Origin: Agathobacter sp.
GTDB lineage: Bacteria > Bacillota > Clostridia > Lachnospirales > Lachnospiraceae
Direction of reading: 5' to 3'
Assembly: GCA_017623935.1 (NCBI GenBank)
Contig: JAGAOC010000006.1
Coordinates: 1-45,634, forward strand
Length of the DNA stretch: 45,634 nt
Position 1 is the stretch's first letter. The number at the start of each line of letters is the position of its first letter. The position numbers and the translations under genes are program-made. Shown here one piece after another: positions 8,240 to 37,833 of this stretch. Under the pieces are notes generated by a model. The model had not been told where the DNA came from and did no database searches. It saw only the letters and a list, made by a program, of their open reading frames with translations.

Positions 8240-9268
8240 TTATGATACAACTTCTTTATAAAATACATCAAGTATAATTTTATAAAACTCTTCATTATCT
8301 ACAGAAAATTCTTCAAAGGTCTCCCCCATTTTGGTCTCTCCCGGAACTGTATACATCCGGGAACTATCAAAGTCATATTCCATTAACTCTGTAATAACCT
8401 GTGCCGCATCCATATTGGTCACAATATAATCAGAGATAGAATTATAGACATTGATCCCATTTTGGGCGTCCATAGCCGGAGCCTGATTCATTTTCTCAAG
8501 ATAATTACTGATATACTGCTCCTGTCTCCGTAAACGATCCGTAGAACTATCGAACTGATCTACATCTCTGCCTCGCAGATATAAATATGCCTGCTGTCCA
8601 TCAAGAAGAACCCGTTCCCCTTTCGTTAAGGTTATTCCATCGCCTTCCATATCCTCTAGGATCTCTACCTCAACGCCGCCAACAGCATCATTGATCTTAG
8701 GAATGGCTCCCATATTTACAGAAAGATAGCCATTGATCGGCAGATTATAAAATAGATAAGATACTGCCTCCACTGTCCGGGCACAACTTAGATTCGCCCC
8801 ATCTCCATAAGCGTACTGAAGACAGAGCTGCATATTGTAATATCCCACACTGCCTCCGGATTCGCTGAAAGCCTCTATCCTGGTCATGGTGTTCCGGTTT
8901 ATAGAGATCACTGACATCTGCATGGTCTGTGGGTCTGCTACCAAAAGGAACATGGCATCTGACTGCCCCGGGTCCTCTTTGCTGTTTATGCTCTCATTTA
9001 CCGTAAGCTCCGTATCTACTCCCATAAGTAGATAGATCTTTAACTGATTATTGTATTGATATCCTTTATTATTGTACTGGATAACGCCTTCCTGCCACTT
9101 CTCCGTCTCTTCTTCCGATTGGGAACTGGCGGAAGTACTATCTGCAACGTTTCCTGTCTGTTGTTTTGCTGTAACAGTTACTACCACTACCACGATCAAA
9201 ACCAGAAGGAGCAGTATAAGTAAAATATACAGATTTCTTTTTCCTACTGCTTCTTTCATATTACTCAT
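8240..9268 (-). CDS. LytR-CpsA-Psr (LCP) family cell-wall glycopolymer ligase
   Basis: LCP proteins attach undecaprenyl-linked glycopolymers to peptidoglycan on the outer face of the membrane. The 342-residue product has a short cytoplasmic N-terminus, one membrane helix (LYILLILLLLVLIVVVVVTV) and a Ser/Thr/Glu-rich linker. The LCP domain follows: YLLMGVDTE, SVISINRNTMTRI with the conserved arginines, GGVEVEI, and YLRGRDVDQFDSSTDRLRRQ with the R-x-R-x8-D-R-x2-R phosphate-binding set. Its start overlaps the stop of the CpsD gene by 8 bases and uses GAAGG as ribosome binding site. Linkage to CpsB/C/D argues for capsule attachment. The hydrophobic segment could also be counted as a signal anchor. 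Confidence 0.9.
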   Translation of the reverse strand: MSNMKEAVGKRNLYILLILLLLVLIVVVVVTVTAKQQTGNVADSTSASSQSEEETEKWQEGVIQYNNKGYQYNNQLKIYLLMGVDTELTVNESINSKEDPGQSDAMFLLVADPQTMQMSVISINRNTMTRIEAFSESGGSVGYYNMQLCLQYAYGDGANLSCARTVEAVSYLFYNLPINGYLSVNMGAIPKINDAVGGVEVEILEDMEGDGITLTKGERVLLDGQQAYLYLRGRDVDQFDSSTDRLRRQEQYISNYLEKMNQAPAMDAQNGINVYNSISDYIVTNMDAAQVITELMEYDFDSSRMYTVPGETKMGETFEEFSVDNEEFYKIILDVFYKEVVS

Positions 9269-9998
9269 CTGTCTGACCTTCGCTCATCTGTCCATAATAG
9301 CTGCCATAATACTCGCCATAATAGCCACCATAATATTTACCATAGTAGCCTTTTTTCTTGACTTTTACCTTATTCAGGATTGCTCCAAGGATCCGTATTC
9401 CGGAAGCTTCTAACTGCTTCTTAACACTGGCAACCATTCGACTGTTTGCTCCACCCTGGGCAACTACGATCACTACACCATCACAATATTTTGCAACTAC
9501 TGCTGCATCAATGGCAGCTCCGATCGGCGCACAGTCCACGATCACATAATCAAAATTTGCTCTTGCAAAATCCATTAATTCCTGGAAATATTTCTTCTCT
9601 AAGATTTCTGTTGGATTTGGGACTGCCGGTCCTGCAAATACCATAAAAAGTCCATAAACTTCTGTTGCATAAAGTACGTCTCCCATCTTTCGCTGGCCGG
9701 AAAGAAAATGAGAAAGCCCGCAGACTTCTTTTCCTGTGGAAGTTCTTGCCCGAAGACGTCCCACCAGGACAGATTTTCGCATATCTGTGTCAATGATGAG
9801 AACTCGCTTTCCTGATTCCGTAAGAGACCTTGCCAGCTCCATAGAAACTGTGGTCTTTCCTTCATTCGGAACAGAGCTTGTCAACATAATGACCTTAATA
9901 TCATCACCGCAAAACTGCAGATTTGTCTTTAATGCACGTATGGATTCTTTCATGGTATAGCTTTGCTTTTTTAAATTGCCAAACTTCAACATTTCCAT
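9261..9998 (-). CDS. cpsD: CpsD/CapB-type tyrosine kinase
   Basis: This bacterial tyrosine kinase (BY-kinase) forms the cytoplasmic half of the capsule/exopolysaccharide co-polymerase. The 245-residue sequence shows Walker A SSVPNEGKTT, Walker A' VLIIDTDMRKS and Walker B YVIVDCAPIG. The C-terminus has a dense tyrosine cluster of repeated GYYG/EYYG units with ten tyrosines, the usual autophosphorylation tail, followed by GQMSEGQTDE. It has no transmembrane helices, so it must be activated by the separate CpsC protein, encoded just upstream. Dephosphorylation would be by CpsB, encoded two genes upstream. ATG follows GAGGTG. Confidence 0.92.
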   Translation of the reverse strand: MEMLKFGNLKKQSYTMKESIRALKTNLQFCGDDIKVIMLTSSVPNEGKTTVSMELARSLTESGKRVLIIDTDMRKSVLVGRLRARTSTGKEVCGLSHFLSGQRKMGDVLYATEVYGLFMVFAGPAVPNPTEILEKKYFQELMDFARANFDYVIVDCAPIGAAIDAAVVAKYCDGVVIVVAQGGANSRMVASVKKQLEASGIRILGAILNKVKVKKKGYYGKYYGGYYGEYYGSYYGQMSEGQTDE

Positions 9999-10023
9999 TG
10001 GCTACACCTCTTTCTTCATCCTT

Positions 10024-10767
10024 CTAGGAAGCCGCTTTCTTACGGCGTTTTTTCTTCTTAGTTGGTTCTCCATCGTACTCTTCTTCCTCTAATGGGAGGC
10101 TGCCCAATACGTGAAGACCGACTTTCTTCTCCAGATCTTCCGGAGTCATGATGGAGTCATTCATGATATATGATAAAATGACCATAACGATCGCCAAAAA
10201 CATTCCAGCCGCTGCTGCAATTACTGTATTCTTCATAACATTCGGACTGACTGGTTCTCCATCTGCATAACCATTCTGAATAGTTCTTGGTGGATCCTGT
10301 GCCATCTTCTCTGCGATATATGCCGAAGCTACTTCTGCCATTTCATCTGCGATCTTCTTCGCCACCGCCGGATCAGCATCCTTGACGGATATGTATAAGA
10401 TTCGGGAATCCGATGGATTCTCTACGCTTACTTTCTTCTCCAATTCTTTATAGGTCATATTCAGATCCAGATTATCTATAACCTGTTCTAAGACCGGCCT
10501 ACACTTCACAACTACGATATAATCGCTGGTAAGACTGGTTCCCGTCTGAAGATCTGCCAGACTGGTAATGGAGGTACTTTTTGTTAAAACATAAAGCGCC
10601 GAAGTCGATTCATACTGAGGCGTCATAATAAAAGTGCTGACGCAAAATGCGATCGTTCCTGTAAGGATCGCTGTTAAAAAGATCACCTTCCAGCTGCTTA
10701 ACACTTCAAAAAATACTTCTTTTAGATCAATCTCAAATTCATCCCCATTATCAAATTGATTTGCCAT
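10024..10767 (-). CDS. cpsC: Wzz/CpsC chain-length determinant and kinase activator
   Basis: This 247-residue membrane protein of the Wzz (PF02706) type controls polysaccharide chain length and activates CpsD. An acidic N-terminal stretch (FDNGDEFEIDLKEVFF) leads into membrane helix 1 (WKVIFLTAILTGTIAFCVSTFI). The extracellular part carries SALYVLTKSTSITSLADL and RILYISVKDADPAVAKKIADEMA. Membrane helix 2 (VIAAAAGMFLAIVMVILSYIM) is followed by a cytoplasmic tail ending in a lysine/arginine-rich stretch, KKKKRRKKAAS. The proline-rich motif before helix 2 (EPVSPNV) is characteristic. ATG follows AAGGAG. Confidence 0.9.
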   Translation of the reverse strand: MANQFDNGDEFEIDLKEVFFEVLSSWKVIFLTAILTGTIAFCVSTFIMTPQYESTSALYVLTKSTSITSLADLQTGTSLTSDYIVVVKCRPVLEQVIDNLDLNMTYKELEKKVSVENPSDSRILYISVKDADPAVAKKIADEMAEVASAYIAEKMAQDPPRTIQNGYADGEPVSPNVMKNTVIAAAAGMFLAIVMVILSYIMNDSIMTPEDLEKKVGLHVLGSLPLEEEEYDGEPTKKKKRRKKAAS

Positions 10768-10780
10768 CTTTTCTCCTTAA

Positions 10781-11485
10781 CTATCCTTCATCCAGGATCT
10801 TTCCCGGATTCTGTCTCAAAATTCTATCTACATAAGATCTCTCATATTTTTTCACGAGATAATCTCTACATTCCTTCATTCGATTCGGGCGATTCTTGAT
10901 CCCGTGGCTGTCACTGCCAATAAAATCTACTTCTCCCATATCTAAGAGTTTTCTGCAAAAACGCTTCTGTGTCCATCCTTCTTTTCCAAGGATCGCCGGA
11001 GCATTGATCTGGATCAGCGCGCCCAATCGCCGCAGTTCTTCTATATTCTCTGCGCCTTTTAATAAGCATTTGTATCGCTCCACATGGGCAATTACCGGCA
11101 CATATCCACGGGAAATAAGTTCTCTCGACATATTCACGATATATTCATATTCTGTCTCATATTCATATTCCGTTAGCACATAAGCCGAATCTGCCAAGGT
11201 TAGTACCCTCTTACTAGAAAGAGCCTCTATGATCCTGCTGTTTACATGATACTCACAGCCCAGAAAAAGTGAGATCCCTTCTTCCTTGGCATAAGGGAGA
11301 AGTTCTCTATAATGTTCCATGATCGTATCTTTTTTGTATGGAAACATCCCATGTCGATAATGAGGTGTCAAAATTATAGTTGAGACGCCCTGCTCTGCTG
11401 CTTCTTTTAACATCAGAGCAGATTCTTCTAATGTTTTTGGTCCGTCATCTACCCCAAAAAGTAAATGGGAATGTATATCTATCAT
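10781..11485 (-). CDS. cpsB: CpsB/CapC PHP-domain tyrosine-protein phosphatase
   Basis: This 234-residue Mn-dependent phosphatase of the PHP family removes phosphate from the CpsD tyrosine tail. Metal ligands are visible in MIDIHSHLLFGVDDGP at the N-terminus, ILTPHYRHG, CEYHV, VIAHVERY and GSDSHG. Residues 1-234 cover the whole family length. It is the first gene of the operon, behind a perfect consensus promoter with a leader of about 60 bases, and is followed after 13 bases by cpsC. The gene order phosphatase, Wzz, kinase, LCP is the one known from Gram-positive capsule loci. Here no glycosyltransferase, flippase or polymerase follows. Confidence 0.93.
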   Translation of the reverse strand: MIDIHSHLLFGVDDGPKTLEESALMLKEAAEQGVSTIILTPHYRHGMFPYKKDTIMEHYRELLPYAKEEGISLFLGCEYHVNSRIIEALSSKRVLTLADSAYVLTEYEYETEYEYIVNMSRELISRGYVPVIAHVERYKCLLKGAENIEELRRLGALIQINAPAILGKEGWTQKRFCRKLLDMGEVDFIGSDSHGIKNRPNRMKECRDYLVKKYERSYVDRILRQNPGKILDEG

Positions 11486-11550: not shown

Positions 11551-11579
11551 ATTATAAGCCCGTTCCTTTTTTCTGTCAA
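11551..11579 (-). promoter_or_regulatory. Consensus sigma-A promoter of the cpsB operon
   Basis: TTGACA (11574-11579) and TATAAT (11551-11556) are spaced by exactly 17 bases on the minus strand. This is a full match to the sigma-A consensus, about 65 bases before the cpsB start. Confidence 0.85.
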
Positions 11580-11677: not shown

Positions 11678-13216
11678 TTAAAATCTTTTGATCTTCTTAG
11701 TGGTGTTCTTCTCGAACTCTACTTCACGAACTTTCAGTTTAAATACTCGTTTGTATAATGGAGCCTCTTTATTGTAGGCGTCGATCATTCCCTGAAGTTC
11801 ATTCTGGATATCTTTGATCTTTTTCTTCTTGGCATATTCATAATCCGGGAAGATCTCTGCTTCGATGACACCTTCGCTGTCACGAACTAATACTTCCTGT
11901 ACCAGACGATTCTCGCCTAATTTATTTTCGATCTCTTCTGGAGAAACGTTCTCGCCATTTGGAGTAATGATCAGGTTCTTCTTTCTTCCTGTCAGGAAAA
12001 TGAATCCATCTTCATCTACATAACCTAAATCTCCGGTCTTTAACCAGCCATCTTCCAAAGTAGCTGCGGTCTCTTCCGGCATATGATAATAGCCCTGCAT
12101 AACGCTGGAACCTTTTACCCAAAGTTCATCATCTACGGTCTTTGCTTCGCAGTTTGGCATTAATTTACCTACAGAACCCACTTTATTGTGCCACTCTAAG
12201 TTTGTACTGATAACAGGAGAACATTCGGTCATTCCGTATCCCTGTAAAATATTGATTCCATATTTCTTAAAGGTATCTAAATATGCTGGATTTAAGTATG
12301 CTCCACCGCTGCAGATGGTGTGGAACTGCTTTCCAAATACTTTCGCTTTAATGATAGGTGCTGGGAGCATTGCCACTTCTTCTAACTTCTTCGCAAAAGT
12401 CTCGATCATCAATGGAACCATTAAGATCATTTCCGGTTTAAAGAGCTCGATATTTTTTGCCACACGCATCAAAGAATCGTTGATACAGATCACGCTTCCT
12501 AAAGAGATTCCTTTTAAGATATCCATACTCAAACAGTATGCGTGATGAATTGGCAATACGGATAAAAGAACGGTTCCCGGTTTGATCTTCATATCCAGAC
12601 AGGTTGCATTTTCTGCCAGATTACGCTGGGAAAGCATAACTCCCTTGCTTTTTCCAGTAGTTCCTGATGTAAACATAATGGTTGCCAGATCTTCCGGCTG
12701 TGGTTCATGATCGAATCCCGGATTCTGTTCTCTTACAACAGACCAGAAGGATTTTGCTCCTTCGACTTTGCTCTCGTTGCTAAGAGAGATCACATGCTTT
12801 AATTCTGGGCAAGACTTTAATGCTGCGCTGGCAGCATCTGCTTTGCTCTCATCAAAGACCAGAGTAGTAACCTCTGCTCTGCTTAACAGATCGCACAGAT
12901 CTTCATCTGGTAACTGAGCATCTAAAGGCACTGCTACACTACCGCTGTTTACGATTCCTAAATATGCTACTACCCATTCATAAGAAGAAGTACCTAATAC
13001 TGCAATGTGCTTTTTCTGTTCTCCCAAAGCTGCTAATGCTGCGGAAAAACATTCAGAGTCATTTTTTAAATCTGTATAAGTCTTGCTTTCAATAGCAACG
13101 GCTTTCTTTCCTTCTGCATTTGGCTTCTTTACTTTGTAACGAAAGGCATCCCATGTGCCATGCTCTGCCTCGGATTTTACTAAAAGTTCACGAATGGTGC
13201 TGCTTAAAATGTCCAT
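11678..13216 (-). CDS. AMP-forming acyl-CoA/acyl-ACP ligase
   Basis: This 512-residue member of the ANL superfamily activates a carboxylic acid as acyl-AMP and transfers it to a thiol. Motifs in order are IMFTSGTTGKSKGVML (A3 P-loop), VLPIHHAYCL, LQGYGMTECSP (A5), WLKTGDLGYVDEDGFIFLTGR (A7/A8) and a C-terminal FEKNTTKKIKRF with the candidate A10 lysine. The fold and length fit medium/long-chain fatty acyl ligases rather than amino-acid adenylation domains. The next gene upstream encodes a free-standing acyl carrier protein, so the likely acceptor is that protein's phosphopantetheine rather than CoA. This last point is inference. ATG follows AAAGGGG. It is the last gene of the TetR-controlled operon. 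Confidence 0.85.
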   Translation of the reverse strand: MDILSSTIRELLVKSEAEHGTWDAFRYKVKKPNAEGKKAVAIESKTYTDLKNDSECFSAALAALGEQKKHIAVLGTSSYEWVVAYLGIVNSGSVAVPLDAQLPDEDLCDLLSRAEVTTLVFDESKADAASAALKSCPELKHVISLSNESKVEGAKSFWSVVREQNPGFDHEPQPEDLATIMFTSGTTGKSKGVMLSQRNLAENATCLDMKIKPGTVLLSVLPIHHAYCLSMDILKGISLGSVICINDSLMRVAKNIELFKPEMILMVPLMIETFAKKLEEVAMLPAPIIKAKVFGKQFHTICSGGAYLNPAYLDTFKKYGINILQGYGMTECSPVISTNLEWHNKVGSVGKLMPNCEAKTVDDELWVKGSSVMQGYYHMPEETAATLEDGWLKTGDLGYVDEDGFIFLTGRKKNLIITPNGENVSPEEIENKLGENRLVQEVLVRDSEGVIEAEIFPDYEYAKKKKIKDIQNELQGMIDAYNKEAPLYKRVFKLKVREVEFEKNTTKKIKRF

Positions 13217-13263
13217 ATTTTTCCCCTTTCCTTTTTCAGGTTCTCCAAAAGATCTCGAACAAA

Positions 13264-13491
13264 CTATTCAGAGATCTTTTCCAGATAATCAACAGCTTCC
13301 TGTACTGTGCGGATATCTGCTGCTTCTTCCTGTACGATCTCTACATCCAGTTCATCTTCGATCTCACCTAACATGCTCATAAAGTCGAAAGAGGTAAATC
13401 CGAGATCCTCCATAAAACGGGATTCTGGTTTAATATCTTCTTTATTTACTTCTACATAATTTACGATAATATCTACTAATTTTTCAAACAT
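13264..13491 (-). CDS. Stand-alone acyl/peptidyl carrier protein
   Basis: This 75-residue acidic carrier protein has the phosphopantetheine attachment serine S34 in EDLGFTSFDFMSM. That differs from the usual DSL triad of fatty-acid ACPs: here the context is TSF. Helix 1 (FEKLVDIIVNYVEVNKEDI) and the terminal helix (VQEAVDYLEKI) are typical. It is distinct from the fatty-acid-synthase AcpP at 36.6-36.9 kb, which has GADSLDLFE. Position between a condensation-domain gene and an AMP ligase gene indicates that it carries the activated acyl group in this pathway. ATG is preceded by GGAG. Confidence 0.9.
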   Translation of the reverse strand: MFEKLVDIIVNYVEVNKEDIKPESRFMEDLGFTSFDFMSMLGEIEDELDVEIVQEEAADIRTVQEAVDYLEKISE

Positions 13492-13531
13492 GATAATTCT
13501 CCTTCTTCATTCAATTTATATTTAAATACGA

Positions 13532-14929
13532 TTAGATCAACTTAATGATATCGCCGATCTTTAAGTTTGGATTCTCAATTCCCTTGAACATGATCTTGCA
13601 CATATAGTAATAGAAGTATTCCAAAGTCTCTCTGGTGATGGCCTCTACCTGATGTTCAAAGTTAAAGTCTAATCCATTGTCATCCGGTCTGTGCATAACG
13701 GTCAGATACATTGCCTGAGTTGTAGCACCGTTTGGATACCACTTAGTCTTATATTTAATGTCTCCTAACTGAGTCAGACCTTTTTCCTTCAAGGTAGCTG
13801 GCTGATAAGTCAGAGTCATTGGCTCATAACCTCTGCCTGGCTCGATCGGATAAACTTTTCTTCTGTAGGCAAAATACTCTACTGGATCGAAGTTAGTATG
13901 GCGGAAAGTCTCATTCTGGCTGTCACGGATAATATGGATTCCTTCCAGGAAAGTCTTATCCTCTGGGATGATCGTTCTGAATGGGAAAGAATGAATTCTT
14001 GTACCACCAGATTTTTTCTCTGCTAAAGTAGCTCGTCTTGCATAAGCCACGTTGAAAGATACATCATCATTTCCGTTCATTTTCTGAAGATATGTACGGA
14101 TTCCCATGATCAAAAGACACTGCAGGGAAATATGCTGTTCCTCACAGAATCTCATAAGACGAGTAGTAGGTTCTTCTTCCAAATGGAAGATATCTAATTC
14201 TGCATCTACATTTCTGGAAATGAACTGAGCTGCTCTTGCATTTGGATTGGTCTTTCTCTCTTCCTCTAAGGCTCTTGGTCCATCAATTCCATTGTAGATT
14301 GGCTCGGACTCTTCAATGAGCTTGTAGAAGAATTCTCTGTCTCTCTGCTGAGCCTTGCTGCCAGCTTCATAAGCCAGATCCTTCTCTAACTGTTCAATGT
14401 AAGAACGCATTTCCTTTGGATATGCTACACCTTCATACATAGTATTACAGTATAACTCGATAACATCTCGTAAGAAACAGATCAATGACTGAGCATCTAA
14501 AGTCAGATGATCTGCCAACAGGTATACACCCTGGTATCCGTCTGGATTTTTGATCATGACCACTCGGTTCATTGGAGAATCTTCTCTCTCAAATGGGATC
14601 TGAGTCCAACTCTTCATGATGGCATCTGCTTCTTCCTGAGTCTTACCGGAAAAATCTACGAACTCGATGTCTCTGTCTTCTTTTTCAGCAATGTACTGAT
14701 ACCACTGCTTTTCCTCTTTATCATAAGCAAAGCGGAGGCGCATTGCCTCACAACGCTCATAAGCTTTGTAAATAGACTGCTTCAACACATTCAGATCCAG
14801 CTCATATTCAATTGTAAGGCTGGTTCCTACATTTACAACTTCTTTCTTTGGACAGTATTCCAAATAGTAAAAATGGAACTTCTGTGCAACAGTTAATGGA
14901 TAAACTTTGTAACCATTTCTTTCCTTCAT
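13532..14929 (-). CDS. Stand-alone condensation-domain (HxxxD) acyltransferase
   Basis: From ATG at 14929 (AGGAGG seven bases upstream; a longer frame with ten extra residues lacks a site) the protein has 465 residues. It resembles a chloramphenicol-acetyltransferase-fold condensation domain. YPLTVAQKFHFYYLEY at residues 10-25 is the C1-like start, and LLADHLTLDAQSLI holds the active-site H141 and D145 in an HxxxD motif preceded by D rather than H. DDVSFNVAYARR and FPFRTIIPE in the second half match latch and floor elements. Such proteins join an acyl group from a carrier-protein thioester to an amine or alcohol. There is no fused adenylation or carrier domain: those are separate genes downstream. 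Donor and acceptor are unknown. Confidence 0.72.
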   Translation of the reverse strand: MKERNGYKVYPLTVAQKFHFYYLEYCPKKEVVNVGTSLTIEYELDLNVLKQSIYKAYERCEAMRLRFAYDKEEKQWYQYIAEKEDRDIEFVDFSGKTQEEADAIMKSWTQIPFEREDSPMNRVVMIKNPDGYQGVYLLADHLTLDAQSLICFLRDVIELYCNTMYEGVAYPKEMRSYIEQLEKDLAYEAGSKAQQRDREFFYKLIEESEPIYNGIDGPRALEEERKTNPNARAAQFISRNVDAELDIFHLEEEPTTRLMRFCEEQHISLQCLLIMGIRTYLQKMNGNDDVSFNVAYARRATLAEKKSGGTRIHSFPFRTIIPEDKTFLEGIHIIRDSQNETFRHTNFDPVEYFAYRRKVYPIEPGRGYEPMTLTYQPATLKEKGLTQLGDIKYKTKWYPNGATTQAMYLTVMHRPDDNGLDFNFEHQVEAITRETLEYFYYYMCKIMFKGIENPNLKIGDIIKLI

Positions 14930-14945
14930 AACATACCCTCCTGGA

Positions 14946-15890
14946 TTATAAATCTGCAATAAATTCGTCTAACGCCTTTTCATAAGACTTCATATCTTTA
15001 AAGTAGCTTTCTGCATGAGCAGCGCCTTCCACAATGAGTTTTTTCTTTTTGGAGGCACAACACTCATAGATCTCATTACACATATTTGTTGGAACAAAAG
15101 TATCCTTTGAACCATGGATGAACAGCATTGGCACTTTTGCCTTTGCCACTTCCCTTTTTGCATTACATTCATCCATTCCGTATCCTGCCAGCTTTTTATT
15201 CATGAGCTCAGCTCCCTGCATAACTGGGAAAGATGGAAGATGATACATGGTCTTAAGTACGTGAGTAAATACTTCTTTTGGAGAAGTAAATCCACAATCA
15301 GAGATGATTCCTTTTACCTGAGGTGGTAATTCCAATCCTCCCGCCATCATGACAGTGGCGCCACCCATGGAAATTCCATGAAGCAGGATCTCTACATCTT
15401 CTCCATATTTCTTAACTGCCCAGTTGATCCACTGTAGAGCATCTTTCCTATCTAAACATCCAAATCCTATGTACTTGCCTTCGCTCTGTCCATGGGCTCT
15501 TGCGTCCGGATGGATCATGGCATATCCATTTTTAAAATAATAATCTGTCAGTCCGATAAAATCTTTTAATCCCTGACTGGTATATCCGTGAAAACAGATG
15601 ACCAGCTTCTTCTTTTCACTTTCTTTGATCGCTGGAAAATAAGCAGCATGAAGTTTTAATCCATCAAAGGATTCCTGGTAAATATCTTCATGAGGCTGTG
15701 CCAGCATATATTCTTTTCGCTCTTTTAAAATATCTGCATACTGATTCCAATCAGTACCTGCCATCTTTACTGTGCGTTCTACTTTCGCTCTCTGGCGTTT
15801 CATAGTTCTTCCGTAAAAATATACGGTCTCTACTACGCCTCCAGCTACAAGCGCCCCCGCACAGGCAACTCCGATTCCTAAAATTCCCAT
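14946..15890 (-). CDS. Membrane-anchored alpha/beta hydrolase (S33-like)
   Basis: This 314-residue protein begins with an uncleaved-looking hydrophobic anchor (GILGIGVACAGALVAGGVVETVYFY). The hydrolase fold follows: LVICFHGYTSQ (oxyanion strand), ARAHGQSEG, nucleophile elbow LLHGISMGGA, acid in FIHGSKDTFVP and histidine in VEGAAHAESY, so the catalytic triad is complete. It resembles the BAAT/serine aminopeptidase S33-like hydrolases. Within this operon it could release product from the carrier protein, edit mis-loaded acyl chains, or hydrolyse a lipid substrate at the membrane. Which one is not decidable from sequence. It lies 16 bases upstream of the condensation-domain gene, and its stop is followed directly by that gene's ribosome binding site. 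Confidence 0.82.
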   Translation of the reverse strand: MGILGIGVACAGALVAGGVVETVYFYGRTMKRQRAKVERTVKMAGTDWNQYADILKERKEYMLAQPHEDIYQESFDGLKLHAAYFPAIKESEKKKLVICFHGYTSQGLKDFIGLTDYYFKNGYAMIHPDARAHGQSEGKYIGFGCLDRKDALQWINWAVKKYGEDVEILLHGISMGGATVMMAGGLELPPQVKGIISDCGFTSPKEVFTHVLKTMYHLPSFPVMQGAELMNKKLAGYGMDECNAKREVAKAKVPMLFIHGSKDTFVPTNMCNEIYECCASKKKKLIVEGAAHAESYFKDMKSYEKALDEFIADL

Positions 15891-15917
15891 ATTTCCTCCA
15901 AACGAAAACGCAGTTTT

Positions 15918-16271
15918 TTATTTTTTCTTCTTGTCCTGTTTTACTTTCAGTTCGATCACTTCTTTTAACTTAAGAGCTTTCTCAATATTACCTTCTACCT
16001 TTAACTTCTGAGTGGTAAATGCCAATACTGGATCTAATTTTCCTTCTGCGATCTTCATAAAGGTATCTGGGTTTGCAATAAAGTTTGCATCTCTATCATA
16101 AAATTCGTAAGGTTCTACAAAAAGCTGTCCATCTTTTACTTCCACATAAAAAGCACCGCCGGCTTCTTCATCTTCAATGGAAAACTGGTATGCCAAGTGC
16201 TCATTGATCTCACTTACATCAGTTCCCATAAAACGGTTCTTGATCTCATAAAAAAATTCTGCGAATGTCAT
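15918..16271 (-). CDS. SCP2 sterol/lipid-transfer domain protein
   Basis: The ATG at 16271 has AAGGAGG immediately upstream. The in-frame extension to 16388 runs through the promoter and operators and is rejected. The 117-residue protein is a single SCP2-like domain: ending in a lysine tail, with FYVEVKDGQLFVEPYEFYDRDANFIANPDTFMKIAEGKLDPVLAFTTQKLKVEGNIEKALKL split across its length. GKLDPVLAFTTQKLKVEGN is the family's most recognisable part. SCP2 domains bind acyl chains and lipids. As first gene of the operon it probably supplies or shuttles a hydrophobic substrate or product. A role as a lipid sensor is less likely. Confidence 0.82.
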   Translation of the reverse strand: MTFAEFFYEIKNRFMGTDVSEINEHLAYQFSIEDEEAGGAFYVEVKDGQLFVEPYEFYDRDANFIANPDTFMKIAEGKLDPVLAFTTQKLKVEGNIEKALKLKEVIELKVKQDKKKK

Positions 16272-16292
16272 ATGATCCTCCTTATTTTCCAG

Positions 16293-16353
16293 TTCGACCC
16301 ATGGTCGAATCACTTTAAGCCCATCATAGCACAACTTTCGACCGCTGGTCAAA
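16293..16353 (-). promoter_or_regulatory. Promoter of the SCP2-ligase operon with two dyad operators
   Basis: On the minus strand TTGACC (16347-16352) and TATGAT (16323-16328) are 18 bases apart. Two copies of one dyad overlap the promoter. The distal copy, read on the minus strand as TTTGACCAGCGGTCGAA (16337-16353), covers the -35 hexamer. The proximal copy, TTCGACCATGGGTCGAA (16293-16309), lies just downstream of the expected start of transcription. Centre spacing is 44 bases, about four helical turns, suited to cooperative repression. The obvious candidate binder is the divergent TetR protein. Confidence 0.75.
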
Positions 16354-16400
16354 CGTAAAAAATACCAAATTAATCCAATCTTTTTCATAATAATTCGCTA

Positions 16401-16436
16401 TTGTTCACAATTTGCAGTTGTGTTAGAATGTTCTAA
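16401..16436 (+). promoter_or_regulatory. Promoter of the TetR gene with overlapping palindrome
   Basis: TTGTTC (16401-16406) and TAGAAT (16424-16429) are 17 bases apart. The perfect dyad TTAGAA-TG-TTCTAA (16423-16436) covers the -10 and start region, so an autoregulator or another factor may act here. Its sequence differs from the two operators of the divergent operon. Confidence 0.5.
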
Positions 16437-16471
16437 TACATATATGCAACACAGAAGAAAGGTAACTTTAT

Positions 16472-17086
16472 ATGCCTGATATAAATAAGTCAGAAAAAAT
16501 CTTAGACGCCCTGCAGCAGCTGTTGGAGGAAAAGTCCATACAAAACATTTCGGTAAGTGAGATTGCAAGCCGAGCCGGCATTGGAAAAGGAAGTATCTAT
16601 TATTACTTTCCTTCGAAAGATGCGATCGTAGATGCCCTAATTGCGCGAAACTATGAACAACCTATACAGACTGCCAAGAAGTTGTCCACTCAGACAGAGG
16701 TATCCTCTTTTACCAGAATGGCAATGATGTTTCAAGCCTGTCGGAATTCTTCTGTAGCTTTTATGCAGCAGAAGACCAACTCCACTAGTTCCGTTCAGGA
16801 TCAGGCATTTTTGCACCAGAAGTACTTAAAATATCTGATCGCAGAATTAAAACCGGTTCTAACCGACATCATCTCTCAGGGTATTGAAAAAGGCGAGATC
16901 CATTTCGATTATCCAGCTGCACTGGCAGAGATTGCCCTGATCGTATTAGCGGTAAAACTGGATAACACCCTTGCTCCATCTTCTTTAGAAGAGATTGAGG
17001 AGACCCTAAAAGGATTGATCTCCCTATTAGAAAAGGGCACCGAAATTCCTTCCGGCACCCTTGGGTATTTAACGCTTATTAATTAA
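16472..17086 (+). CDS. TetR/AcrR-family transcriptional regulator
   Basis: This 204-residue repressor has an N-terminal helix-turn-helix of TetR type: ILDALQQLLEEKSIQNISVSE, IASRAGIGKGSIYYYFPSKDAIVDALI (recognition helix with the IYYYF signature). The ligand domain follows, about residues 60-190, with no recognisable ligand signature. It is transcribed away from the SCP2-hydrolase-condensation-ACP-ligase operon, with 200 bases between the start codons. The dyads in that gap are the likely binding sites. The inducer may be an acyl-CoA, fatty acid or the product of the pathway, by analogy with other lipid-responsive TetR proteins. This is inference. Confidence 0.88.
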   Translation: MPDINKSEKILDALQQLLEEKSIQNISVSEIASRAGIGKGSIYYYFPSKDAIVDALIARNYEQPIQTAKKLSTQTEVSSFTRMAMMFQACRNSSVAFMQQKTNSTSSVQDQAFLHQKYLKYLIAELKPVLTDIISQGIEKGEIHFDYPAALAEIALIVLAVKLDNTLAPSSLEEIEETLKGLISLLEKGTEIPSGTLGYLTLIN

Positions 17087-30545: not shown

Positions 30546-32288
30546 TTAGAACTTACGGAAACGCCCATAGCGTTCTTCACGCAGTTCTTCCTCAGTCATA
30601 GTTTCTCTTTTCTTTAAAAAGGCTTTCATATTGCCTTTCATATAATTTGCAATAGAAGTTAATGCATCATCATCTGCAGTTCCGTATTCCGGAATGATAT
30701 CTTCGATGATTCCCAGCGTTTTCAGATCCTGGGCTGTAATATGCATAACATCAGCTGCTTCTTTTGCTCTGCTTCCGTCTTTCCATAAAATAGAAGCAAA
30801 ACCTTCTGGTGAAAGGATCGCATAAGTTGCATTTTCCATCATCCATACTTCATTTCCTACTGCAAGAGCTAACGCTCCGCCGCTTCCGCCTTCGCCGATC
30901 ATTAAGCAGAGTACCGGTACTTTTAAGCCGGACATCTCATAAAGATTACGGGCGATAGCTTCTCCCTGTCCATTCTGCTCTGCTTCAAGACCTGGATATG
31001 CTCCGGACGTATTTACGAAAGTGATGATCGGACGTCCGAATTTCTCTGCCTGCTTCATAAGACGCAGAGCTTTTCTGTAACCTTCTGGAGAAGGCATTCC
31101 ATAATTGTGATCCATACAAGCCTGCAGGTCACGCCCCTTGTTTACACCGATCACAGTAACCGGCTGGCCATCCAAGTATGCCACACCACCGATAATGGCT
31201 GGATCATCCCGATAAGCACGGTCTCCATGGAATTCCATGAAATCATCAAAGATAGCGTTAATATATTCTACAGCCCCCAGACGTTTTACCTGACGGACTT
31301 CTTTTACTTTATCCCAAGCTAAGAGCGGATTTGTTTTAACTGCTCTTTCCTTCATAAGCTCTGTTGGCTCATAAATATCATCATCACGAAGTGGATCAAA
31401 ATTAGTAAATCCTTTTACCGGACGATGCATTTTTAAGATCTGGTATAAGGTCATTTTCAACTGATCTCTGGTAACGATAGCATCTACAAAACCATGCTCA
31501 AGCTGAAATTCTGCTCTCTGAAATCCTTCCGGAAGTTTCTGACCAATGGTCTGCTCAATTACTCGTGGTCCTGCAAAACCGATCAATGCTCCCGGCTCTG
31601 CCAGAATGATGTCTCCTAACATTGCAAAACTTGCTGTTACACCACCTGTAGTAGGATCTGTTAATACTGGAACATATAAAAGTCCTGCTTCAGAATGTTT
31701 CTTAAGTGCTGCAGAAGTCTTTGCCATCTGCATTAAGGAAACGATTCCCTCCTGCATTCTGGCTCCACCAGAACAGCAGAATAAGATAACAGGTAATTTC
31801 TTTTCTGTTGCCCTTTCTACTGCTGCAGTGATCCTTTCGCCTACTGCATAACCCATACTTCCCATAAAGAATCTGGCATCGATCACCCCTAAAACGGTCT
31901 TTTCGCCGTAAATGCTGGCTTCTCCGATCAGAACACCTTCGGTAAGTCCTGTTTTTTCCTGAACCTGTTTTAATTTATCTTCATACCCTTCAAACTGTAA
32001 CGGATTGTTTCCCTGAACCTCTTCTAACCATGGCTCAAAGCTCATAGAATCTGTTACCATTTTAATACGGTTTTTTGCACGAACACGGAAATAATATCCA
32101 CATTCATAACATACATATTTTCCCTTTACTACCCTCTGTTTAAAAAGTTCTTTTCCACAGGAAGGACAAGTCAGCATCTCTGGTGCTGAATCCTTTGCAG
32201 TTTCTTTTCCTGCAGTTTTTACCTCTGCTGATTCTTTTGATTTATTAACAGTTGCATATTTTTTCCCGAAAAGATTGATCTGTTTCAT
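30546..32288 (-). CDS. Fused acetyl-CoA carboxylase carboxyltransferase AccD-AccA
   Basis: From ATG at 32288 (GGGTGATAGAA upstream) the 580-residue protein joins the beta subunit (AccD, about residues 1-285) and alpha subunit (AccA, about 300-580). The AccD part has the zinc finger [11 protein letters not shown] and [33 protein letters not shown], and [11 protein letters not shown]. The AccA part has [46 protein letters not shown] and [24 protein letters not shown]. It transfers carboxybiotin to acetyl-CoA to make malonyl-CoA. Fused AccDA is known in some Clostridia, while most bacteria have separate chains. The biotin carrier and carboxylase genes are not in this operon. Confidence 0.93.
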
Positions 32289-32298
32289 TTCTATCACC

Positions 32299-32727
32299 CT
32301 ATCCAATCGCAAAGGTCAATTCAGCCATGCAGACTACTTTTCCATCTACATAAGCGGTGGCTTTTCCTACACCAATTGGTCCTTTTACTTTAATGATCTC
32401 TGTTTCCAACATAAGTGTATCTCCAGGCAGAACTTTCTGCTTGAATTTTGCAGAATTGATTCCTGCAAAGTAAGCAGTCTTTCCTTTCCATTCCTCCTTG
32501 GAAAGGATCGCTACTGCTCCTGTCTGTGCTAATGCTTCAATGATCAGCACTCCCGGCATAACCGGATTTCCCGGAAAATGTCCGGTAAAATGTCCCTCTG
32601 AAAAAGTAACATTTTTCTTAGCTACTGCCCGAACGCCAACTTCTAATTCTTCTACGGTATCGATAAGAAGAAATGGATGACGATGTGGCAGGATTTCCAT
32701 GATCTGACTTGTATTTAAAATTGACAT
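32299..32727 (-). CDS. fabZ: 3-hydroxyacyl-ACP dehydratase
   Basis: This 142-residue hot-dog-fold enzyme removes water from 3-hydroxyacyl-ACP. The active-site histidine lies in [20 protein letters not shown] and the catalytic glutamate in the same helix; [17 protein letters not shown] is the usual N-terminal signature. The ATG lies one base after the fabF stop, and the gene ends ten bases before accDA. Tight packing indicates coupled translation. No FabA-type isomerase gene is in view. Confidence 0.95.
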
Positions 32728-32728
32728 A

Positions 32729-33964
32729 TTAACCCTCGTATTTTTTAATTAAGATACTTGCATTGTGACCACCAAAGCCTAAGGAGTTGCTTAAAGCATA
32801 TGGAACTTCTTCTTCGTAAGATTCCTTACAGTAATTTAAGTCCATTTCCTCATCTGGGGTCTCATAACCTACTGTTCTATGAATAAAACCTTCTTCTACT
32901 TCCTTAACACAGGTGATAAATTCAACTGCACCTGCTGCTCCTAATAAATGTCCGATCATAGATTTTGTGGAATTTATCTTTAACGCCTGGGCATGCTCCC
33001 CAAATGCCAGACGGATCGCTCTTGTTTCAAAAAGATCGTTGTGGTGAGTTCCAGTTCCATGAGCATTGATGTAAGTGATCTCTTCTGGATTTACAAATGC
33101 ATCTTTCATTGCATTTTCCATAGCTCTTGCTGCGCCTGATCCACTTTCTTCTGGAGAAGTGATGTGGTAAGCATCTGCAGAACATCCATATCCTACAACC
33201 TCTGCATAGATCTTAGCTCCTCTTGCTTTTGCGTGCTCTAATTCCTCTAACACTACAACACCAGCACCTTCACCCATAACGAAACCGCTTCTGTTCTTAT
33301 CAAATGGAAGAGAACATCTCTTTGGATCTTCAGAAGTAGATAATGCTGTTAATGCCTGGAAACCTGCAATACCTAATGGACATACAGCACCTTCTGTTCC
33401 ACCTGCAAACATAATGTCTGCTTCACCATGCTGAACACTTCTAAATGCTTCACCGATTGTATTCGTTCCTGTTGCACAAGCTGTTACTACGTTAATATTT
33501 TTTCCCTTTAATCCAAACTGAATAGAAACGTTTCCAGCTGCCATATTTGAGATCATCAGTGGTACGAAAAGAGGATTTACTTTGGATGGTCCTTTTTCTA
33601 CCAGCTTGCTGTGTTCACGTTCCATGGCCGGAATACTTCCGATACCGGAACCAATCGCACAACCTACCATGTATGGATCTTCTTTTTCCATATCCAGTCC
33701 AGAATCTTCCATAGCTTCCTTTGCAGCGGCTACTGCGTACTGAGAAAATAATTCCATACGCTTTGCAGCCTTGAAATCCATATAATTCTTTCCTTCAAAC
33801 CCTTTTACTTCTGCTGCAAGTTTGCTCTTATAATCAGTGGTATCAAAACGGGTGATCTCACCGAAACCAATTGTTCCTTCTTTCACGTTTTTCCAGAATT
33901 CTTCTACACTTAAACCGATTGGAGTAATGGCTCCCATTCCGGTTACTACAACTCGTCTGCCCAT
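32729..33964 (-). CDS. fabF: Beta-ketoacyl-ACP synthase II
   Basis: The 411-residue condensing enzyme elongates acyl-ACP. Cys163 in [12 protein letters not shown] is the nucleophile; [12 protein letters not shown] and [13 protein letters not shown] hold the two catalytic histidines. [17 protein letters not shown] opens the thiolase fold. Length and motifs match FabF, not FabB. It follows fabG by 17 bases and overlaps nothing. Confidence 0.95.
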
Positions 33965-33981
33965 ATTTCTTTCCTTTCCTA

Positions 33982-34719
33982 TTAAGCCATGCCTCCATCT
34001 ACAGACAATACCTGACCAGTGATATAATCAGAGTCTGCTGATGCCAGAAACAGTACTGCTTTTGCTACGTCTGCTGTTTTTCCAGGTCTTCCCATTGGAA
34101 TCTGTTTTAATAATGCTTCTTTTGCATTTTCTGGGATCGCGTCTGTCATTTCTGTTGAAATGAAACCTGGTGCTACTGCGTTTACATTGATTCCTCTGCC
34201 TGCTAATTCTTTTGCAACTGCTTTGGTCAGTCCGATCACGCCGGCTTTGCTGGCTGAATAATTTGCCTGACCTGCATTTCCCATAACACCGGAAACGGAA
34301 GAAATATTAACGATCTTTCCGCTTCTCTGTTTTAATAAATAACGGGATGCATGACGGATCACGTTGAAACAACCTTTCAGGTTGGTATCTAATACAGCAT
34401 CAAAATCATTTTCACTCATGCGCATGATCAGTCCATCTCTGGTGATTCCTGCGTTATTTACGATGATATCCAATCGACCGAATTCTCCGATGATGTATTC
34501 GATCATTTTCTGACATTCTTCAAAATCAGATACATTACAGCCGTATGTAACAGCATTTCCTTGATTCTCTTTAATTTCTGCAACTACCTGCTCTGCTGCT
34601 TCTTTAGAACCATTATAGTTTACGATTACGGTAGCTCCTGCCTGAGCTAAAGTCTTTGCAATTTCCTTGCCAATTCCGCGGCTTGCGCCGGTAACAAGGG
34701 CGATCTTATCGGTTAACAT
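33982..34719 (-). CDS. fabG: 3-oxoacyl-ACP reductase
   Basis: From ATG at 34719, which lies within the last codons of fabD (14-base overlap), the product has 245 residues. TGASRGIGKEIA binds NADPH, ISSVSGVMGNAGQANYSASKAG carries the Ser-Tyr-Lys triad (YSASK), and GFISTEMT is the FabG-type loop. It reduces 3-oxoacyl-ACP with NADPH. Ribosome binding by TGGAGG is about 12 bases away, long for this organism, so coupling to fabD translation may be important. An upstream alternative start is not supported. Confidence 0.95.
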   Translation of the reverse strand: MLTDKIALVTGASRGIGKEIAKTLAQAGATVIVNYNGSKEAAEQVVAEIKENQGNAVTYGCNVSDFEECQKMIEYIIGEFGRLDIIVNNAGITRDGLIMRMSENDFDAVLDTNLKGCFNVIRHASRYLLKQRSGKIVNISSVSGVMGNAGQANYSASKAGVIGLTKAVAKELAGRGINVNAVAPGFISTEMTDAIPENAKEALLKQIPMGRPGKTADVAKAVLFLASADSDYITGQVLSVDGGMA

Positions 34720-35632
34720 ACTTATTAAAATCCTCCATAGTATCAATATTTACAGCAGTTACGTCTCTGTTGATTTTCTTCAAGAAACCACATAATGTAC
34801 GTCCTGGTCCGATCTCTACGAACTCATCTGCACCATCTGCGATCAGTCTTTCTACGGTCTGCTGCCATTTTACTGGGGCACATACCTGTTTTGCCAACAA
34901 CTCTTTGATTGGCTCTTTTGTGGTAACGTAATCTGCAGTTACATTTGCCAGATATGGAATCTGAGGATCATTTACGTTAACCTCTGCAAGACTTTCTTCT
35001 AATTTAATTCCAGCTTCCTTTAACATCTGAGAATGGAACGGTCCACTTACTTTTAATGCTACAACTCTTTTTGCTCCGGCTTCTTTACATCTTTCTCCGG
35101 CTTTTTCTACAGCTTCCTGTGCACCTGTAATAACGATCTGTCCAGGGCAGTTATAGTTTGCAACGGAAACCACCTGATTCATCTCTTCTGCGGTCTTTGT
35201 GCAGATCTCGTCGATTATAGCTCCATCCAGACCTAATACAGCACTCATTGCTCCACCAGTTGGAACTGCCTCCTGCATATAGATTCCTCTTTTTCTTACA
35301 AGAGCGAAAGCGTCTTCCATGGAAAGAACGCCTGCTGCGATCAACGCTCCGTATTCACCAAGACTTAAACCTGCAGTTACATCTGCTTCGATTCCTTTTA
35401 AACGAAGTGCTGTAAAAATTGCGGCTTCTGTGGTTACCATAGCGATCTGTGTATACTCTGTGATATTGATCTGATCATTTTCTGTAAAACACAATGCTGG
35501 AATATCTAAACCTGTTACTTCACTTGCCTTTTCATAAATTGCCTTTACTTCCGGCATAGTGTCATAAAACTCTTTGCCCATTCCAACGTACTGCGCTCCC
35601 TGTCCTGGAAACATAAATACACGTTTTCCCAT
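34706..35632 (-). CDS. fabD: Malonyl-CoA:ACP transacylase
   Basis: This 308-residue enzyme loads malonyl groups onto ACP. From ATG at 35632 (AAGGAG seven bases upstream) it begins MGKRVFMFPGQGAQYVGMGKE. The nucleophile elbow is GLSLGEYGAL (the usual GHSLGE with L for H), and the second histidine lies in VSGPFHSQML. Arg in QEAVPTGGAMSAVLG-side helix follows the family pattern. Found directly between fabK and fabG. Confidence 0.93.
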   Translation of the reverse strand: MGKRVFMFPGQGAQYVGMGKEFYDTMPEVKAIYEKASEVTGLDIPALCFTENDQINITEYTQIAMVTTEAAIFTALRLKGIEADVTAGLSLGEYGALIAAGVLSMEDAFALVRKRGIYMQEAVPTGGAMSAVLGLDGAIIDEICTKTAEEMNQVVSVANYNCPGQIVITGAQEAVEKAGERCKEAGAKRVVALKVSGPFHSQMLKEAGIKLEESLAEVNVNDPQIPYLANVTADYVTTKEPIKELLAKQVCAPVKWQQTVERLIADGADEFVEIGPGRTLCGFLKKINRDVTAVNIDTMEDFNKYVNR

Positions 35633-35692
35633 AATCGACTCCTTTTTCTGCAATCTATTAGGCATAAGAGAAATTTCCCTTATGCCAGTGTC

Positions 35693-37191: not shown

Positions 37192-37833
37192 ATGGAAAGC
37201 AATAACATTGTCACCCTTTATCATGGTTCCAAATCTGGTATCCAGGGCAATATTGCTCCGATCAGCCGCGGAAGATGTGATTTCGGACGAGGTTTTTATA
37301 TGGGTACAGACCGCACACAACCTCTTACCCTTATCTGTAATTATGAAAACTCTAAACTTTACACTTTAAAAGCCAATCTATCGGGACTAAAGATTTTAGA
37401 TATAGAGGTCGGTCTAGACTGGGCACTGCTTGTAGCATACAATCGTGGTAAAATGGAATCTATAAAGGGAACTTCTATTTACAATCATTTTAAAAATCTC
37501 ACAGATGGATATGATATGGTAATCGGTTATATTGCTAATGATCGAATGTTCACAGTTCTTGATCGATTTTTCAGAGGAGATATTACCGATGCAGCATTGA
37601 TCCATAGTTTATCTGCATTAAAGCTTGGTAAACAATATGTCGCCATTACTGAGAAGGCATGTTCCCAAATTCAGATTATAGAAGAAACAGCATTATCTGC
37701 TAATGACCTGGAGACACTAAAAATAGCAAGTGAAAAAAATCGTAAACAGGGAATCGCCTTAGCAGATGAGATATGCAGAAAATATCGCCGAGAAGGCAGA
37801 TTCTTTGACGAAATCTTAAAGGTGGGTGAATGA
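37192..37833 (+). CDS. DUF3990-like protein, possible ADP-ribosyltransferase toxin
   Basis: The 213-residue product has LYHGSKSGI and CDFGRGFYMGTDRTQP near the N-terminus, then GYDMVIGYIANDRMFTVLDRFFRG in the middle and KQYVAITEKACSQI. These fit the DUF3990 family as I remember it, whose H-x-S/T-like YHG and GFY motifs recall ADP-ribosyltransferase folds (RES/ART clans). The C-terminal 45 residues are charged and helical. The ATG has a strong AAGGAGG. A small gene follows one base after the stop. The gene lies alone on the plus strand between fab and thiT, like an accessory insertion. ART activity is inference, and only a toxin-like role is suggested. Confidence 0.6.
   Translation: MESNNIVTLYHGSKSGIQGNIAPISRGRCDFGRGFYMGTDRTQPLTLICNYENSKLYTLKANLSGLKILDIEVGLDWALLVAYNRGKMESIKGTSIYNHFKNLTDGYDMVIGYIANDRMFTVLDRFFRGDITDAALIHSLSALKLGKQYVAITEKACSQIQIIEETALSANDLETLKIASEKNRKQGIALADEICRKYRREGRFFDEILKVGE

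Follow-up and report, generated by a model that had tools for sequence, protein, structure and literature searches.

Five consecutive minus-strand genes and a divergent gene for a TetR-family regulator occupy positions 11,678 to 17,086 of a 45,634-nucleotide stretch of Agathobacter sp. DNA (GenBank assembly GCA_017623935.1, contig JAGAOC010000006.1), referred to here as the window. These genes very probably form a fatty-acid-amide (FAA) operon of the C-T-A ("CTA") kind, in which a condensation protein (C), a carrier protein (T) and an acyl ligase (A) are encoded separately. The operon has an extended six-gene form, the usual one within a clade of Lachnospiraceae. The core (C, T and A) is of a known kind. 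Its extended version under joint regulation is a variant for which no description was found in the searchable text of the literature. The genome containing the window has 2.08 Mb in 101 contigs and is about 80% complete.

The six genes and the condensation protein

All six genes are present in the list of open reading frames (ORFs), as the initial annotation had described them, and Pfam agrees with the domain identities given there (AMP-binding, PP-binding, Condensation, hydrolase, SCP2 and TetR_N). From 16271 to 11678 on the minus strand, the order is SCP2 (S), hydrolase (H), C, T and A, with gaps of 27, 16, 40 and 47 nt when the corrected start of C is used. The features are as follows.

16472–17086, plus strand: divergent TetR-family regulator (R); TetR_N 4.8e-15, TetR_C_39 2.3e-8; also adjoins the operon in relatives
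16277–16283, minus strand: ribosome binding site of the SCP2 gene, AAGGAGG
15918–16271, minus strand: SCP2-like lipid-carrier protein (S), 117 aa, start corrected; Pfam SCP2 3.1e-16, alignment of relatives
14946–15890, minus strand: alpha/beta hydrolase (H), hydrophobic N-terminus, S174/D263/H292; Hydrolase_4 2e-17
13532–14929, minus strand: stand-alone condensation protein (C), 465 aa, motif D-H-x-x-x-D-A; Condensation 1.5e-36, PDB 12kh, tree
13264–13491, minus strand: acyl carrier protein (T), phosphopantetheine serine within GFTSFD; PP-binding 1.9e-10, acyl carrier relatives in PDB
11678–13216, minus strand: AMP-forming fatty-acyl ligase (A), stand-alone; AMP-binding 1e-68

The SCP2 gene was first called as an ORF of 156 aa with an ATG at 16388, which is 39 codons too long. 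Its start was moved to the ATG at 16271 because the additional N-terminal codons coincide with the promoter and the two operators described below, and because the relatives and the ribosome binding site fit 16271. For C, the start is most likely the ATG at 14929 rather than the TTG at 14959, which opens a 475-aa ORF.

The best match of C in the PDB is 12kh, which covers residues 18–474 of the 475-aa ORF with an E value of 5.2e-107; nine other chains matched below 45 bits. According to the main text of the preprint PMC13142362, this entry is OaaC, the FAA condensation domain of Coprococcus eutactus. C and OaaC share 39% identity. The initial annotation had allowed that C might group with unrelated enzymes, but it groups with OaaC, apart from the condensation domains of nonribosomal peptide synthetases (NRPS). 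In a tree of 67 C proteins, built by a quick method with several long branches flagged and including 5 of the 80 loci on named contigs, the window falls in a clade of 43 rows (Shimodaira–Hasegawa-like approximate likelihood ratio test, SH-aLRT, 97), hereafter the window clade. OaaC and 12 others form a separate clade (SH-aLRT 98), and six NRPS domains are set apart (SH-aLRT 99). A third small clade (L136–L138) contains C proteins without adjoining T and A; the neighbours of L136 include AbiH-like and AAA/helicase-like genes.

The residues H141 and D145, named in the initial annotation, are invariant in the 24 aligned sequences. The motif [D/N/H]HxxxDA is present in 117 of 118 window-clade loci, with no pattern match in L085. 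Among the 15 loci of the OaaC-type and C-alone groups, DHxxxDS occurs in 13 and DHxxxDA in one, and one has no pattern match. These counts take the first pattern match per locus and were rechecked. The FAA set described in the main text of PMC13142362, with 127 sequences, has the motif (D/H)HxxxD followed by Ser in 42% and by Ala in 36%, and the window-clade motif ending in Ala fits this set.

No condensation domain beyond C was found in the window genome at an E value of 0.001. The C. eutactus oaa locus was sought among the genomes and not found; the best match was 57%, in 28 genomes of one genus. Two other explanations were dropped: an ordinary NRPS fragment, as C is stand-alone and lies outside the NRPS outgroup in the tree, and a decayed cassette, since the motifs checked are intact.

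The T carrier is a separate protein resembling acyl carrier proteins (ACPs), encoded between C and A on the same strand. Its serine context TSF, noticed earlier as replacing DSL, is the commonest form in the window clade (61/79 and 24/37 in two locus sets). The NCBIfam assignments of the cassette proteins agree with those of Pfam, yet all matches are below the curated cut-offs. For the ligase, among the best 25 of 103 NCBIfam matches, the long-chain-fatty-acid ligase model reached 255 bits and the amino-acid adenylation model 150 bits, both below cut-off. By these scores A appears to be a separate acyl-activating ligase rather than an amino-acid adenylation domain. The SCP2 and TetR_N domains pass their Pfam cut-offs (60 bits against 21.3, and 55.5 bits against 24, respectively), and no nucleotide-binding domain was called by Pfam in the SCP2 protein. 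H is assigned by Pfam to the S33/alpha-beta hydrolase family (2e-17). It had been read as a membrane-anchored enzyme with a full triad: S174, D263 and H292 are invariant in 25/25 sequences and fit a catalytic triad by position, and the hydrophobic N-terminus would suit an anchor, both as predictions from the sequence.

Systems with this core have been described. Following the main text of PMC13142362, free-standing A, ACP and C proteins make FAAs in gut Clostridia, and that of PMC13060934 presents CTA as a three-gene operon in 36 species, all Lachnospiraceae, with a criterion of 70% identity to the catalogued C and A. N-acyl amide clusters of gut Clostridia, mentioned in the initial annotation, are thus on record in both papers. 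The CTA operons (founding paper Chang et al. 2021, to which both PMC13060934 and PMC13142362 refer) resemble the window in their stand-alone C, T and A in the same order, in their occurrence in Lachnospiraceae, and in having a fatty-acyl ligase, an ACP-type carrier and a C with D/H-H-x-x-x-D. They differ in being three genes according to PMC13060934, whereas the window adds TetR, SCP2 and the hydrolase ahead of them, along with the double operator, which is conserved. The added genes may be shown in Chang et al. 2021. The words SCP2, hydrolase and TetR are absent from the main text of PMC13142362 and PMC13060934, and none of the three was found named with acyl-amide operons in the searched literature, which excludes Chang et al. 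2021.

Distribution and gene order in relatives

Within the genus, C matched at an E value of 1e-3 in 27 of 60 genomes, the window genome included; one of them matched only in a frame of 5316 aa, an NRPS by its size. At the family level, with OaaC as query, 73 of 397 genomes matched, and 56 places had E values below 1e-40 in 55 genomes, again including its own. The 55 places outside the window, taken as the family sample, comprise 37 of the window clade, 12 of OaaC type, 3 with C alone, and L176–L178, kept separate. A second set holds the 80 loci on named contigs; it overlaps the family sample in part, and the loci are related. Loci with a flank hidden by a contig end were set aside (20/80 named, 6/37 window-clade and 3/12 OaaC-type). 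L176 (C-A-T), L178 (T-A-C) and L177 (TetR-SCP2-hydrolase-incomplete C-A) stand outside the architecture tallies.

The five genes occur together and in order in most relatives, which agrees with the co-occurrence expected in the initial annotation. The arrangement of a divergent R followed by S-H-C-T-A is complete in 51 of the 60 assessable named loci, with 8 lacking R and 1 lacking S. Among the assessable window-clade loci of the family sample it is complete in 25/31, with 5 lacking R and 1 lacking both R and S. Among the 9 assessable OaaC-type loci, six have C-T-A and three H-C-T-A, and SCP2 is absent from all nine. The SCP2 gene at the operon head, once considered unusual, is therefore the rule in the window clade and was not found in assessable OaaC-type loci. 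L136–L138 carry C alone, and a relative of H is found apart from C in two OaaC-type loci (L128 and L132).

At a threshold of 45% identity, none of the nine proteins flanking the window operon has a counterpart in the loci of the 80 relatives, and the six cassette proteins were present in 66 to 80 of them; the cassette therefore stays together in differing surroundings. The recurrence of gene order and double operator in dozens of genomes is more than chance. In one relative (L169:9648–10331), a phosphopantetheinyl transferase gene (PF01648, E 1.4e-17) lies between R and S, which fits the need to arm T. The window genome also has a second SCP2 gene (L200), 43% identical, on a 6.2-kb contig from which TetR, operator and C are all absent.

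At the order level, 33 of 392 genomes matched at 1e-30, three of them from another family. The loci of these three present R and H-C-T-A without S, although in one of them the contig ends within A; the palindrome TTGACC-N3-GGTCAA is found in two and is imperfect in the third. A simple reading is that SCP2 joined an existing R and H-C-T-A unit within Lachnospiraceae. At the phylum level, 4 of 398 genomes matched at 1e-30: the window itself and three genomes that belong to a single genus and match at 26% identity inside frames of 716 to 1460 aa.

The predicted promoter and double operator

The region between R and S contains a predicted promoter and two putative operators on the minus strand, as follows.

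16337–16352, minus strand: putative operator O1, TTGACC-AGC-GGTCGAA, overlapping the -35 box (TTGACC, 16352–16347); comparative
16323–16328, minus strand: -10 box TATGAT, 18 nt from the -35 box; promoter scan, comparative
16293–16309, minus strand: putative operator O2, the palindrome TTCGACC-ATG-GGTCGAA with 7-bp arms and a 3-bp centre, located downstream of the -10 box; comparative

The paired sites are conserved. The relatives provided 94 R-S intergenic regions, which after removal of 10 duplicates left 84 distinct regions. At least two GACC-N3-GGTC sites, with at most one mismatch each, are present in 79 of these, and the other five have one. In 50 Markov-resampled control sets, the mean was 0.4 regions and the maximum 2. 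The two sites are spaced 43–45 bp apart, with a single exception at 54. The first operator contains the -35 hexamer (TTGACC in 77 and TTGACT in 2 of the 79 pairs), and a TA---T box lies 17–18 nt past it in 79/79 pairs, taking the best of spacers 16–19. A general promoter scan ranks the SCP2 promoter second in the region.

At least one operator site is present in 96 of 97 loci with TetR against 7 of 26 without it, rows being related and partly duplicated; the Fisher value of 1e-15 is not a true probability, as the locus sets overlap and the loci are related. There is strong comparative evidence that the operon is under local control, predicted to act through TetR and the paired palindromes.

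The window TetR has among its best NCBIfam matches FadR of Bacillus and PsrA, which it resembles in the local control of a lipid operon; it falls far below the cut-off, so it is no member by that measure. Among TetR proteins of the FadR type, others also recognise operators built on a GACC/GGTC core.

Proposed function, alternatives and neighbouring genes

The chemistry of A, T and C proposed here is carried over from the papers on relatives. TetR, bound to one operator across the -35 box and another just past the -10 box, would hold the single promoter shut and would be released by a signal of lipid nature, possibly acyl-CoA or a fatty acid. SCP2 may gather the hydrophobic acyl substrate at the membrane, or carry the product. 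The membrane-linked hydrolase could supply free fatty acid from lipids, or clear stalled acyl thioesters. The ligase would activate the fatty acid with ATP and load it onto T, and C would then transfer the acyl chain to a freely diffusing amine, so that an N-acyl amine is released. The hydrolase would not be needed for this release, because OaaC-type enzymes hand the acyl chain to a free amine. The initial view of a TetR-controlled, NRPS-like acyl-conjugating line made of unfused single-domain proteins is supported. Of the fatty-acyl amide or ester proposed then as the product, the amide is the probable one, by homology. The analysis itself established the order of the genes, the kinship of C with OaaC and the conservation of the motifs and of the double operator; the roles of S, H and R, the signal of TetR and the acyl chain and amine used are inferred.

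Alternatively, the product might be an acyl conjugate of a different kind (an ester or N-acyl amino acid, for example), or the operon might serve mainly for the disposal of toxic fatty acids or amines rather than for a signal. The C clade is separate from that of OaaC and its motif ends in Ala, not Ser, as such a reading would have it. However, the sister-clade enzyme makes amides with small amines (PMC13142362, main text). In addition, the main text of PMC13060934 compares carriers of CTA with non-carriers: it reports higher levels of N-acylethanolamines in two Blautia species with the operon than in two lacking it, and likewise in a single Coprococcus catus isolate with CTA relative to a single one lacking it. 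We consider this alternative unlikely.

The role of the hydrolase allows a further reading, compatible with the FAA operon, in which H acts as an amidase or thioesterase on the acyl amide or the acyl-T thioester, giving a reversible or proofread pathway, and not as a supplier of fatty acids. H is a serine hydrolase by its invariant triad residues, and its best NCBIfam match is an acyl-homoserine lactonase, at 51.7 bits far below the cut-off of 400; its named relatives in the PDB, on the other side, include esterases and monoacylglycerol lipases. We regard this second role as quite possible, if not the favoured one.

Several observations weigh against the proposed FAA operon. Identity between C and OaaC is just 39%, and what SCP2 and the hydrolase do is guessed from their families. 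The TetR gene is not nearby in 6/31 family-sample and 8/60 named loci, and SCP2 is lacking in 1/31 and 1/60, so that neither is essential everywhere. The SCP2 family is wider than the operon, with matches at 1e-3 in 91 of the 397 family genomes. Among 20 SCP2 loci chosen for no stand-alone C seen alongside, TetR and operator occur without a complete C-T-A in five (L183, L185, L186, L187 and L202). SCP2 and TetR may therefore have a life of their own; L183, which keeps fragments of A, looks like a remnant, and cassette loss appears to happen as well. Six of the 12 OaaC-type loci also have weak TetR-family matches (23–28 bits) in their vicinity, so the presence of a TetR gene next door does not by itself set the window clade apart. 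As for the regulatory sites, the fuller operator pattern (at most one mismatch) has no occurrence in the window genome beyond these two sites, yet the backwards control pattern gave 4 per strand, so the genome-wide rarity of the operator carries no weight. Promoter-like sites are no more frequent in the region than in shuffles.

An SCP2-like protein has been studied in Blautia hominis HA2291, where, according to the accessible text of PMC13029680 (2026), RS03310 is among 29 genes raised by cholesterol, the protein binds cholesterol and performs NAD-dependent oxidation, and the condensation protein RS03300 is encoded nearby. This was the only link between SCP2 and a condensation protein in the searched literature, Chang et al. 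2021 lying outside that search. RS03310 and RS03300 are two locus tags apart, as an SCP2-hydrolase-C order would give. Locus tags usually step by five, so that a single gene could lie between the two, in the place that H would take. The residues I10, I22, Y28 and F30 named for RS03310 are the same in the window SCP2; at the position of G21, the window has E, and 11 of the 96 cassette loci have G. This match supports, but does not prove, the same operon, because G21 differs and several of these residues are also present in SCP2 relatives that lie outside the operon. Judging from its published description rather than its DNA, we infer that RS03310 heads the same kind of operon.

PMC13029680 reads SCP2 as cholesterol-converting, and the terms "fatty acid amide", "operon", "N-acyl" and "TetR" are absent from its accessible text. 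Applied to the window, this would be a sterol pathway in which SCP2 binds and oxidises cholesterol with C as partner. The cholesterol-induced expression, the binding and oxidation by RS03310 and the proximity of RS03300 speak for it. By homology, however, C, T and A form a fatty-acyl amide machine; C-T-A and hydrolase-C-T-A exist without SCP2; and SCP2 proteins are otherwise carriers, as the same paper remarks. We consider a sterol pathway highly improbable.

More speculatively, the full unit in the window clade might be a lipid-responsive six-gene line, in which TetR would respond to lipid from the host or the diet, SCP2 together with the hydrolase would capture the acyl chain and free it, and A, T and C would conjugate it. 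The cholesterol-induced SCP2 of B. hominis would be its first gene, with cholesterol or its vehicle inducing acyl-amide synthesis. We put this forward tentatively, as somewhat less probable than its negation. If it is true, one operon joins the acyl-amine and the "cholesterol-lowering" Blautia literatures. Bacterial FAAs are reported to act on human receptors (PMC13142362, main text), and, if a dedicated repressor, a lipid carrier and a hydrolase serve the operon, there is a simple route to find what triggers production, and assays with C, T and A alone may miss the natural substrate supply.

Other genes of the window were also inspected. A capsule/exopolysaccharide set starts downstream of the operon on the same strand (8240–11485), with CpsB/CapC at 10781–11485 and ORFs that by eye resemble Wzz, CapB kinase and a LytR-type protein; a perfect consensus promoter-like site (12/12) lies ahead of it at 11579–11551. 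Fatty-acid synthesis genes are located at 30546–35665, about 13 kb from the operon, including an acetyl-CoA carboxylase (30546–32312) and an acyl-transferase domain (34706–35665). A gene for a DUF3990 protein (37192–37833, 1.7e-31) is on the plus strand amid mostly minus-strand genes, and a transposase gene (43914–45512; DUF772, DDE_Tnp_1_6) is close to the end of the window.

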